The position numbers and the translations under genes are program-made. This document shows positions 10,982-20,800 of a DNA stretch of 42,527 nt, one piece after another. The DNA lies in the NCBI GenBank assembly GCA_016787295.1, contig JAEUUX010000168.1:1-42527 (forward strand), given 5' to 3'. Source of the stretch: Chitinophagales bacterium (lineage in GTDB: Bacteria; Bacteroidota; Bacteroidia; Chitinophagales; UBA2359). How positions within the stretch are numbered: the first letter of the stretch is position 1; the number at the start of each line of letters is the position of its first letter. The notes under the pieces were generated by a model. That model had not been told where the DNA came from. It saw nothing but the letters and a program-made list of their open reading frames with translations, and made no database searches.

Positions 10982-11083
10982 TTTGGGCGTTTCCCTGCGG
11001 GTCGGGCTTTTCGAGGCTTCGCTAACGCTACGGTGCAAGCACCAGCCTGCGGCTGCCTCTACAATCCCTAACGCGCTTCGCCA
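10982..11083 (-). repeat. Dispersed GC-rich repeat, copy A
   Basis: About 102 bp between iscS and iscA. On the minus strand it reads TGGCGAAGCGCGTTAGGGAT at one end and CCCGACCCGCAGGG then AAACGCCC at the other, as do copies B and C. The middle closely matches copy C and contains two small hairpins, CAGCC-GCA-GGCTG and GGTGC-TT-GCACC. It is much more GC-rich than the surrounding intergenic DNA and is open in the iscA reading frame, which can mislead start prediction. Confidence 0.9.
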
Positions 11084-15470: not shown

Positions 15471-15580
15471 TGGCGAAGCGCGTTAGGGATGCGGAGGGTG
15501 GCGTTAGCCAGTGCGGAGAGCAACGCAGCACCGAGCGTAGCGAAGCCCGTAGCAGCCCGACCCGCAGGGAAACGCCCAAA
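15471..15580 (+). repeat. Dispersed GC-rich repeat, copy B
   Basis: About 110 bp just downstream of fumC. It has the same ends as copies A and C: TGGCGAAGCGCGTTAGGGAT at 15471-15490, then CCCGACCCGCAGGG and AAACGCCC by 15577. The middle is different in sequence: where A and C carry the CAGCC-GCA-GGCTG hairpin, B carries TGGC-GTTA-GCCA. The middle also has repeated GCGTAGCG/GCGAAGCC-like words. Confidence 0.9.
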
Positions 15581-15633: not shown

Positions 15634-17028
15634 TTAGAGACCGACCATTTTTTCGGGAATAACCCAAGCGTCGAATTGTTCGGCTGTTAGCAAACCTAAT
15701 GCTATGGCTGCTTCTTTGAGCGTTGTGCCATCGTTATAGGCTTTTTTGGCAATGTTGGCGGCGTTGTCATAACCAATATGCAGGTTAAGGGCTGTTACCA
15801 ACATCAGGGAGTTGTCCAAATTGCGTTTTAAAGCGGGATAGTTGGGTTCGATTCCTTTGGCGCAGTGTTCGTTGAAGGAATCAGCGGCATCGCCCAAAAG
15901 TCGAGCTGATGTAAGGAAGTTGTAAATCATCATGGGTTTAAAGACATTGAGTTCGAAATGTCCTGTGCAGCCACCGATATTAATGGCTACGTCGTTGCCC
16001 ATGACTTGGGCGCACACCATTGTGAGGGCTTCCGATTGTGTTGGATTGACTTTGCCGGGCATGATAGACGAGCCGGGTTCGTTGGAGGGAATGATGATTT
16101 CGCCAATACCACTTCGTGGTCCTGATGCCAAAAGGCGTATGTCGTTGGCAATTTTCATGAGGCTGACTGCCAAGGTTTTCAATGCTCCGGAGGCAGTTAC
16201 AATGCCATCGTGTGCTGCCAAGGCTTCGAATTTGTTAGGAGCAGTGACAAATGGTAGTCCGGTGTATTCGGCAATTTTTTGTGCAACGGTTTCGGCATAG
16301 CCTTTGGGAACATTGATGCCTGTGCCAACTGCGGAGCCACCAAGTGCCAATTCTGCCAAATGCCACAGGCAGTTTTGAACGGTTTTAATGCCATGGTCTA
16401 ATTGGGAGGCATAGCCCGAAAATTCTTGTCCCAGTGTGAGAGGGGTTGCGTCCATGAGGTGGGTGCGACCGATTTTGACGATTTTGGCAAAGGCATCGGC
16501 TTTTTCTTGCAAGGTGTCGCGCAGGGCGGCTATGCGGGGCAGGGTGTGGTTGACCAAGATTTGGTAGGCTGCGATGTGCATTGCTGTTGGGAAAGAGTCG
16601 TTGGAAGATTGGGATTTATTTACGTCATCGTTGGGGTGCAGTACTTTTTTGGTATCGGTCAAAGTACCACCTGAGAGGACGTGTCCGCGATTGGCAATGA
16701 CCTCGTTGACATTCATGTTGGATTGTGTGCCAGAGCCTGTTTGCCATACCACCAAAGGAAATTGGTCGTCGAGGCTGCCTGCTAAAATTTCGTCGCAGAC
16801 GCGGGCAATTAAATCGGCTTTTTCTTGGGGAAAATTGCCACAAGCTACATTGGCATAAGCTGCGGCTTTTTTGAGTATAGCAAAAGCGCTAATGACTTCG
16901 AGTGGCATTCGTTGCCCGCCAATTTTGAAGTTTTGGACGGAGCGTTGGGTTTGTGCTGCCCAATACTTATCGGCAGGCACGTCGACATAACCTAAGCTGT
17001 CTTTTTCTTTTCGAAATTCCATGTTCAT
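15634..17028 (-). CDS. fumC: Fumarate hydratase, class II
   Basis: A 464-aa enzyme catalysing reversible hydration of fumarate to malate in the TCA cycle, without an Fe-S cluster. The N-terminus [20 protein letters not shown] resembles E. coli FumC (an ATG two codons downstream, at 17022, is an equally good start). Motifs: [14 protein letters not shown] (98-111), [11 protein letters not shown] (141-151), [17 protein letters not shown] with catalytic base-side H190 (187-203), and the family signature [10 protein letters not shown] (319-328) with the catalytic serine loop. Its promoter may be the minus-strand consensus site at 17355-17387, more than 300 bases upstream, which would also transcribe the small ORF at 17253-17339. 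Repeat copies B and C flank the gene in the same orientation. Confidence 0.95.
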
Positions 17029-17252
17029 GTGTATTTTGGGTAGTTATACAGTATTGTCAGAAAGGTAATATATGTACTTACTTCTTGCTAAAAAATATTG
17101 GCAAAAACAAATTGAAATACTTAGTTCAAAGCCTGATTTTATGTTTCAAATATGTGAAAATAATGCGTAGAACGGTAAAATTCTATTATTTTTAACCTGA
17201 TTTTTGTTGTAATAGCGATTCTAAATCGTATGCTAATGAGGTATATTAATTT

Positions 17253-17339
17253 TTAACAAATAAGGAAAGGAGAGTCGAAATCTGCTTTTTCGTCCTCCGT
17301 CCAGTCCAATTGTTTCCTTAGTTTAGGTAGGTAAGACAT
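17253..17339 (-). CDS. Possible 28-aa small protein or leader peptide upstream of fumC
   Basis: An ATG at 17337-17339 opens 28 codons ending in TAA at 17253-17255. The peptide begins MSYLPKLRKQLDWTEDEKAD and ends F-D-S-P-F-L-I-C; it is charged and looks like coding sequence rather than random AT-rich DNA. The ATG is 15 bases past the -7 box of a consensus minus-strand promoter, so the leader would be only about 8 bases. The ORF is followed by 224 bp before fumC, and the same transcript could run into fumC. I do not recognise the peptide; it may be a small protein, a leader peptide or chance. Confidence 0.4.
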   Translation of the reverse strand: MSYLPKLRKQLDWTEDEKADFDSPFLIC

Positions 17340-17354
17340 GATGAAATTTTTCCG

Positions 17355-17387
17355 CAAAAGTACAACTATTTTAGCAAGACAACAAAA
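17355..17387 (-). promoter_or_regulatory. Consensus Bacteroidetes promoter facing fumC
   Basis: On the minus strand: TTTTG (17383-17387), a 20-base spacer, and TACTTTTG (17355-17362). This fits TTTG-n19-21-TAnnTTTG. It drives the 28-codon ORF and possibly fumC. Confidence 0.65.
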
Positions 17388-17455
17388 GATTCTATTTTTT
17401 TTAAAAAATCAGTGATATTATAGCTTTCCTTTTCGACAACCCACTTTTTTTTTAT

Positions 17456-17486
17456 TTTGGAACTGATATTGATGGTTGTATCTTTG
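17456..17486 (+). promoter_or_regulatory. Consensus promoter upstream of repeat copy C
   Basis: TTTG (17456-17459), a 19-base spacer, TATCTTTG (17479-17486). A transcript from here would cross repeat copy C before reaching the PKD-repeat gene about 350 bases downstream. Confidence 0.6.
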
Positions 17487-17549
17487 CATTGAGTTAGTTG
17501 TTTGGGGTTGGGGGTCTAGGTTAATTGGTTGTTGGACTCTATTGGCAAA

Positions 17550-17650
17550 TGGCGAAGCGCGTTAGGGATTGTAAGGGCAGCCGCAGGCTGGTGCTTGCAC
17601 CGAAGCGGAGCGTAGCCCTGTAAAGCCCGACCCGCAGGGAAACGCCCAAA
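17550..17650 (+). repeat. Dispersed GC-rich repeat, copy C
   Basis: About 101 bp, same orientation as copy B and nearly the reverse complement of copy A. It has both internal hairpins, CAGCC-GCA-GGCTG and GGTGC-TT-GCACC, and the common ends. It differs from copy A mainly in the segment between the second hairpin and the CCCGACCCGCAGGG end. Confidence 0.9.
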
Positions 17651-17739
17651 AAATGATTAACGATTGTAGATTTGTGTTGTTTGGGTGTCAAATTTTAGCT
17701 AATTTGGCTATTGTTTTTCGACAATGCTTATTTTTTTTA

Positions 17740-17772
17740 TTTGGATAGGCTTGTTGTTGCACCTTATCTTTG
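17740..17772 (+). promoter_or_regulatory. Promoter of the PKD-repeat T9SS cargo gene
   Basis: TTTG (17740-17743), a 21-base spacer and TATCTTTG (17765-17772), 62 bases before the ATG at 17835. Confidence 0.65.
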
Positions 17773-17834
17773 CGGTATCAATGCTGCGAAATTCTTTTAG
17801 CTTAGTAATTTCTTAATCAAAAAATATATAGTGT

Positions 17835-20800
17835 ATGAAAACTCTATCTCTACCTTATTTTCAGTATTTTCGCTATCTTTTGGCGTTAATATGGTGTTGT
17901 GTTGTGGGTGTGGAAACCTCTGCACAAGTGTTTCAAAATACGCTCACATTGCCAAGTACTGATGAGTATTGTGCAGGTTTGGCGAGTGATGCTACCAGTG
18001 GTTTTTATATTTCGGTGGGTAATACCAATTCGGGTGGAACGAATAGGGTTTTGTTGACTAAATATAATTCGGCTACGGGTAATGTTATGTGGACACGCAC
18101 CGTCAACCAACCGGGTGCTGCCACAACTTGGTATGCCACTGATATTCAGTCTACACATGCAAGTCCTGTGACACAACCTGCGAATGGTGCAACAGCAGTT
18201 ACTTCGCCTGCCAATGCTGCGGTCATTGCTGTTCCTAACAATAACTCTGCTTATTATATTAGTGGTTATACATTTACTACTACTTGTGCGGGTGTTACTG
18301 TTCGTCGTATGGTACTATATAAAGTAGATAATAATGGTAATGTGTTGTGGACTCGTAGCAATTTTGTAGGTGGTTGTACCTACGACGAAATTGGTGTTTC
18401 GGTCGAAACAGCTCCTAATGGCGATGTGTTTATTGTGGGTAATGCTCGCAATGTGAGTAATAATCGCAGCCATGTTTCGGTAGCACGTTTGCGCTCTAAT
18501 GGTAATTTGATTTGGCAAAATCGCTATTTAACTTCCAATACGGCTTCTTTTACGTATGTTCCTCGTCAATCTATTACTACTAACGAGGCGGTTGTGACAA
18601 CAACTGGGGTTAGTGGAGATGCCACAGGTATTGCTGTAACAGGTGAATTTAGAAATACGACTGTTGCTACAAGTGTTTTGCGTGGTTTTGTGATGCGTAT
18701 TGCTTCGAATGGTGCTGAGATGTGGCGTGTGGGTCATTTTTTATCGGGTAGTACTGTGTCATCGGGACAAGATGTTATTATTGACCCTGTTTCTCGCAAT
18801 TTTACAGTTGTTGGTCATGTTGGAACTAGTACTAGTTTTCGTACTTTGTTTTGGCAGGTTACTTCTTTGGGAGGACATGTCTTGAGCCAGATATATAATC
18901 AACCTCAACAAGCAGTTCATTATGCACAAAGTATTGTTCCGTCTCGCACTGTTGGTAATTTTGCAGTAGCAGGTGCGGTTACTATTCCTACTGCATCAGG
19001 TGGTGTTGGCACAGATACTTATTTGACGGAACTTAATGCTACGGGTACGCCTTTGTGGTTCCGCTACTATACTCGTACTACGCCACGTTATGCAGCTACA
19101 GAAAGTGTTGTTGCTTCGCCTACGGGTTATTATATTACTACAAATGCTGCCTCTACTAATACCAATACAGACGGACACGTTATTTCGACCGATGCTTTGG
19201 GTATGTTGCCCGGCGCTACGCCTGATAATTGTGTTGAAAGAACCAATGAATTGGTTAAACAAGTTACGGGTGATACACAAATACAGACCAAAGCACAAAC
19301 CGCTACGACTACTGTTGCCACCATAACTACGGCATCGGCTACTGTCGTTCCTACAGAAGATATTTGCAAACCAAATCCTTGCCCTACCTGCGATAGCTTT
19401 ACAGTGAGTATAGGAGATTGTATCCAAGATCCTACAACGGGTATGTCGGTGCGTCCTGTAAGTTTTGGTCTAAACTGTACTATTCCTACCACAGTAACTA
19501 GCAACATGACATGGGACTTTGGCGATGGCTCAACACCTTATACAGGACCTTTGGCTTCTGTTATCCATAACTATGCTCCCGGTACCTATACCGTTTGTGC
19601 ATACGGAACTTTTACGGTTAATGGCATTATTTGTCCATTCCAAATTTGCCAAACTATTGTCGTGCCACCTTGTCCGTTGCCTTGTCCCGAATGTACATCA
19701 TTTAGTTACACCACAGCTTGTGTTCAAGGACCTGCGGGTAATTTAATTCCGCAAGCTACTTTTACCCTGAACTGCATCCCTGCTGCCAATATTGTGAGTG
19801 GTACTATTTGGTGGGATTTTGGAGATGGAAATACGGGTAATTATCCTTACAATACGGTTACACATAATTATTCGGCACCCGGTACCTATACTGTATGCGC
19901 TCATGCTGTTCAGTTGGTATTAGATAATGGACAAGTGTGTGAATTAGATTATATTATTTGTCAAACAGTGGTTATTCCTCCTTGTCCATCACCTTGCCCT
20001 ACTTGCAACAATTTTACAACTGTAATAGGTGACTGCCAACAAGCTACGCCCGGTACTGCGACAAGTGCATGGTATCGTCAAGTTGGGTTTAGCCTCAATT
20101 GCCCTGTTCCTGCTGGTTCATCAATTGTTATGAATTGGGACTTTGGTGATGGTTCTCCCATAGCTACCTACAACACATGGTTGAGTCCTGTACATAATTA
20201 TGCCCCTGGTACCTATAATGTTTGTGTCTGGGGTGTGATAACCTTAGCCGATGGCACACAATGTCCATTTGACTATTGCCAAACAGTTACCGTTCCGCCA
20301 TGTCAAAATCCTTGTCCCAATTGCAATAGCTTTACTCCGCACATAGGTGACTGCCAACAAACGGCTACGGGTGCATGGTATCGTCAAGTTGGATTTAGTT
20401 TAGATTGCACTGTTCCTGCTGGTTCATCAATTGTTATGAATTGGAACTTTGGTGATGGTTCTCCAACGGTTACGTACAACAGTTGGGTAAGTCCTGTTCA
20501 TAATTATACTACTTTTGGAACATTTAACGTTTGTGTCTGGGGTGTGATAACCTTAGCCGATGGCACACAATGTCCATTTGACTATTGCCAAACAGTTACC
20601 ATTCCACCTTGCCAAAGTCTTTGTCCCACTTGCAACAGTTTTACCGCTTATATGGGTAACTGCCAACAAACGGCTACGGGTGCATGGTATCGTCAAGTTG
20701 GATTTAGTCTTAACTGTCCTATCCCAACAGGTTCTTCCATCAATATGACATGGAACTTTGGCGACGGCTCTCCAACTGTGAATTATACCAATTGGGTAAG

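Follow-up and report, generated by a model that had tools for sequence, protein, structure and literature searches.

A Bacteroidota-type promoter far upstream of fumC in a Chitinophagales bacterium may have been displaced in part by a MITE-like repeat

The region upstream of fumC

We analyzed a 42,527-nucleotide stretch of DNA (the window) from a Chitinophagales bacterium. The fumarate hydratase gene fumC and a divergent gene with a PKD domain, which begins at 17835, are separated by an intergenic region of 806 bp (17029-17834). The features that concern us are:

15634 to 17028, minus strand: fumC, a class II fumarate hydratase of 464 amino acids (Pfam Lyase_1 and FumaraseC_C; ~70-80% identity to Bacteroidota relatives)
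17076 to 17237, minus strand: remnant of a MITE-like repeat of ~265 bp, truncated and degraded; its right half is left, with the inverted end on that side, GCAAGAAGTAAG, decayed (81-89% identical to at least 10 other places in the same genome)
17238 to 17263, minus strand: possible further extension of the repeat over the last codons and stop of the reading frame below (~65% identity to an older copy, C103, within a 77% alignment)
17253 to 17339, minus strand: 28-codon ATG frame, probably incidental, like an upstream ORF within the fumC leader (no homologues; ambiguous coding score)
17355 to 17387, minus strand: putative Bacteroidota-type (-33/-7) promoter, TTTTG-n20-TACTTTTG (from its sequence, the published consensus, and its being the sole TAHHTTTG on the intergenic minus strand)

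The short frame runs from an ATG at 17339-17337 through 28 codons (MSYLPKLRKQLDWTEDEKADFDSPFLIC) to a TAA at 17255-17253, and its stop lies 224 nt from the first ATG of fumC (17028), as the initial annotation had it. The actual start of fumC is likelier to be the ATG at 17022, because most relatives start two codons later.

A promoter of the Bacteroidota type

The two boxes are TTTTG at 17387-17383 and TACTTTTG at 17362-17355, with a spacer of 20 nt. This agrees with the promoter of the Bacteroidota primary (housekeeping) sigma factor, which has TTTG and TAHHTTTG elements ~19-21 nt apart (PMC6847099, PMC9723704): both elements are present, the spacing is ordinary, and the intergenic region has no second TAHHTTTG on the minus strand. 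We counted 10 matches to the strict pattern TTTG-n19-21-TAnnTTTG in the window, as compared to about 2 per dinucleotide shuffle, and 7% of shuffles of the region upstream of fumC contain at least one such pair of boxes. The promoter thus exceeds the chance expectation, and we consider it believable, with the coordinates and geometry that were initially annotated. In published Bacteroidota promoters, the -7 box spans -12 to -5 (PMC9723704; the consensus is also given in PMC6847099), so transcription would start at about 17350, or 11 nt upstream of the ATG of the 28-codon frame. This is close to the earlier estimate of 17348, about 8 nt from the ATG.

We also note that the divergent PKD-domain gene has two plus-strand TATCTTTG boxes upstream of it (17479-17486 and 17765-17772), each with a TTTG element at -33. 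Transcription from the farther of these would cross a dispersed GC-rich repeat (GGGCGTTTCCCTGCGGGTCGGGC...), which lies at 10985-11006 (plus strand), 15556-15577 (minus strand) and 17626-17647 (minus strand) of the window. Its core is present in three exact copies, where none would be expected.

Promoters of fumC in related bacteria

We compared the region to 102 distinct fumC upstream regions from relatives. Among these, 52 of 79 TAnnTTTG boxes are within 49 nt of the fumC ATG, and the median distance from the ATG to the nearest box is 32 nt, versus 326 nt in the window. The published median length of 5' UTRs in Bacteroidota is 24-32 nt (PMC9723704). The promoter in the window is about 10 times farther from fumC than is usual. 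In a few relatives, the nearest box is 100-390 nt from fumC. Given the position of the promoter, the lack of any other box on the strand, and the fumC promoters of relatives, a transcript from this promoter probably continues into fumC, as was originally suggested.

A remnant of a MITE-like repeat

What the initial annotation overlooked is that much of the sequence between the short frame and fumC belongs to a repeat. The source genome contains more than a dozen copies of at least 100 bp, at 72-94% identity. Full copies are ~265 bp, have terminal inverted repeats (CTTACCTTTCGCTAAAAAAT...ATTTTTTAGCGAAAGGTAAG), and sit mostly between ordinary genes. In several copies, we read target duplications of ~6 bp by eye: TTAATT (L154/L010), ATCAAA (L157/L007), TAACAA (L160/L008), and AGGCAA (L162/L013). 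Apart from a 27-bp scrap, the repeat has no copy in 19 genomes from the organism's family. Because of the size of the copies, the inverted ends, the target duplications, the mostly intergenic locations, and the absence from those 19 family members, the repeat has the anatomy of a MITE. In its anatomy it is like the MITEs of Bacteroidota, such as those of Porphyromonas gingivalis (PMC4596501) and Cardinium (PMC9769881): it is short, non-coding and multi-copy, with inverted ends and short target duplications, and is mostly intergenic. The copy in the window differs from these in that it is truncated and its left end is gone.

This copy retains the decayed right inverted end only, and we found neither a left inverted end nor a target duplication for it, so the insertion event is deduced from the rest of the repeat family. 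We considered whether the left half of the stretch at this site could correspond to the left half of the repeat in diverged form, and rejected this, as the alignment was no better than those of shuffled sequences and there is no left inverted end. We took CTTACC at 17335 to be due to chance. The alignment to C103 starts at 17263 (77% identity over 97 bp), so the last codons and the stop of the 28-codon frame would fall inside the repeat; the extension from 17238 to 17263 is not significant by itself.

Elsewhere in the genome, ends of the repeat directly adjoin genes of the PDDEXK_2 type (Rpn-like, "nuclease family transposase") at L163, L172, and L173. For L172 this assignment was confirmed by Pfam, and for the other two it is by resemblance.

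The 28-codon frame and its peptide

The length of the frame is not above chance: 26 of the 173 intergenic ATGs in the window (15%) open frames of at least 28 codons, and so do 15% of first ATGs in a local Markov simulation. Its codon score is -1.6, as compared to -13.9 and -8.1 for the other two frames. Such a score falls at the lower end of what real gene starts reach (5 of 27 are lower), but 24% of chance intergenic ORFs score equally well or better, so the codon evidence is ambiguous.

We found no credible homologue of the peptide in 99 relatives, in 396 genomes from the order, or in 395 genomes from the phylum, none of which are from the same genus. (The order and phylum samples comprise ~790 genomes; the sets overlap somewhat.) Nor was there a match in plasmids or phages, or to any family in Pfam, NCBIfam, or PHROGs. 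Scattered matches had E-values of 0.02-2, which are expected by chance because these E-values are per genome. The best match from the order (L179, E = 9.9e-4) is interrupted by a stop and is not preceded by a promoter box, so we rejected it. Several genomes from one other genus have matches to SYLSTLREKLNWGEDSR, but these are the C terminus of a longer, unrelated frame rather than a family of small ORFs, and we treated short DNA matches of ~22-42 bp in other genomes as noise. The comparison to Bacteroidota genomes that had been proposed for this peptide therefore does not indicate a conserved small protein.

The AUG of the frame follows the predicted transcription start by 11 nt and has an A at -3, so the frame may be translated as an upstream ORF; nothing indicates a regulatory role. 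Most likely the frame is incidental, and the peptide lacks support as a gene product.

A displaced fumC promoter and other explanations

We propose that this is the housekeeping promoter of fumC itself, that the leader was lengthened by the insertion of the MITE-like repeat and perhaps of other sequence, and that the 28-codon frame is incidental. We give this a probability of roughly 0.62. The fumC mRNA would start at about 17350 and would have a leader of about 320 nt that crosses both the frame and the repeat remnant. The repeat, of which 17237-17076 is left, and perhaps other sequence would have come between the promoter and fumC, which would account for the unusual length of the leader: the promoter would have been pushed about 300 bases upstream, in part by the now-degraded repeat. 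The 28-codon frame would then just fill the stretch between the promoter and the remnant, and may end within the remnant. Transcription into fumC, the repeat as the cause of the displacement, and the absence of a peptide function are all things that we infer. The remnant explains about half of the distance (~162-188 of 326 nt), so ~140-165 nt are left over, which is still above the usual distance; another insertion, or a small gene, could lie there. Also, a -33/-7 promoter whose start is 11 nt before an ATG is what one would expect of a real small gene as well. This counts against a displaced promoter, as do the few relatives whose nearest box is far from fumC.

The initial annotation had suggested that the frame might be a small protein gene. 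A lineage-specific gene for a 28-residue protein, with its own promoter and a transcript that either includes fumC or stops short of it, would account for the promoter geometry with its short leader and for the A at -3 (PMC6847099), and its codon score does beat those of the other frames. We nevertheless consider such a gene unlikely, given the lack of relatives in the order, the phylum, plasmids, and phages, the 24% of chance ORFs with scores as good, and last codons that may be derived from the repeat. A narrower form of this idea, in which a genus-restricted protein or a translated upstream ORF arose recently at the edge of the repeat and is co-expressed with fumC or controls it, seems quite improbable. 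It is as unlikely as a small protein gene that the frame is what is left of a longer gene, its 5' part, after the repeat insertion and a later deletion cut it off. The frame does end at or near the boundary of the repeat, and the peptide matches a PD-(D/E)XK-like protein from a member of the organism's family at 70% over 20 residues; the source genome has about 30 or more copies of this protein family. But the E-value of this match is 0.066 per genome, the peptide scores -1.0 bits against a profile built from 31 sequences of that protein family, and the matching block is about 60 residues into the family instead of at the N terminus, where we found no other match. We therefore rejected the frame as a gene stump of these proteins. 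As for the proteins themselves, they are ~210-260 amino acids long, with the motif W-N-E-x-E-L-K-M-x-F (G000, e.g. L186-L215, plus L047 in the family member), and the one member that we scanned did not reach any Pfam or NCBIfam cut-off (the best was PDDEXK_12, with 12.4 bits versus 27).

Control of fumC by a leader peptide or a structured 5' UTR, through attenuation or translational coupling, had also been suggested. As in known upstream ORFs and attenuators, there is a short frame between a promoter and a metabolic gene, on what is likely the same transcript, and leader-peptide attenuation has been reported in this phylum, upstream of amino-acid operons (PMC9723704). Unlike those systems, this frame has no runs of regulatory codons, no alternative terminator and antiterminator hairpins, and no conservation in the relatives that we searched. 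There is no match to an Rfam family in the window and no terminator-like hairpin on the minus strand between the promoter and fumC; the 320-nt leader does not fold unusually as compared to shuffles (z = -0.14); the 224 nt between the stop of the frame and fumC are mostly repeat remnant; and a literature search for fumC leader peptides found none. The promoter and the fumC leader are supported, but we have no evidence of regulation by the leader, and we consider it very unlikely. Least probable of all is that the promoter drives a short non-coding RNA with no relation to fumC, while fumC relies on a weak or non-consensus promoter near its own ATG. That is where relatives usually have their box, and TACCTTTC at 17067 differs by one base from the -7 consensus, but it lacks the G at -5, which hardly varies among mapped promoters (PMC6847099), and a non-coding RNA would also have to end without a terminator-like hairpin on this strand.

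Implications

As the promoter looks like a displaced fumC promoter, the finding is an ordinary one with small consequences. It would be an example of how the lengthening of a gene's leader by a mobile repeat can bring about a short frame adjacent to a good promoter, and it cautions that such frames should not be called genes without comparison to relatives. If the long leader is real, then this is a modest example, from nature, of a repeat that changes the 5' UTR of a gene in central metabolism.
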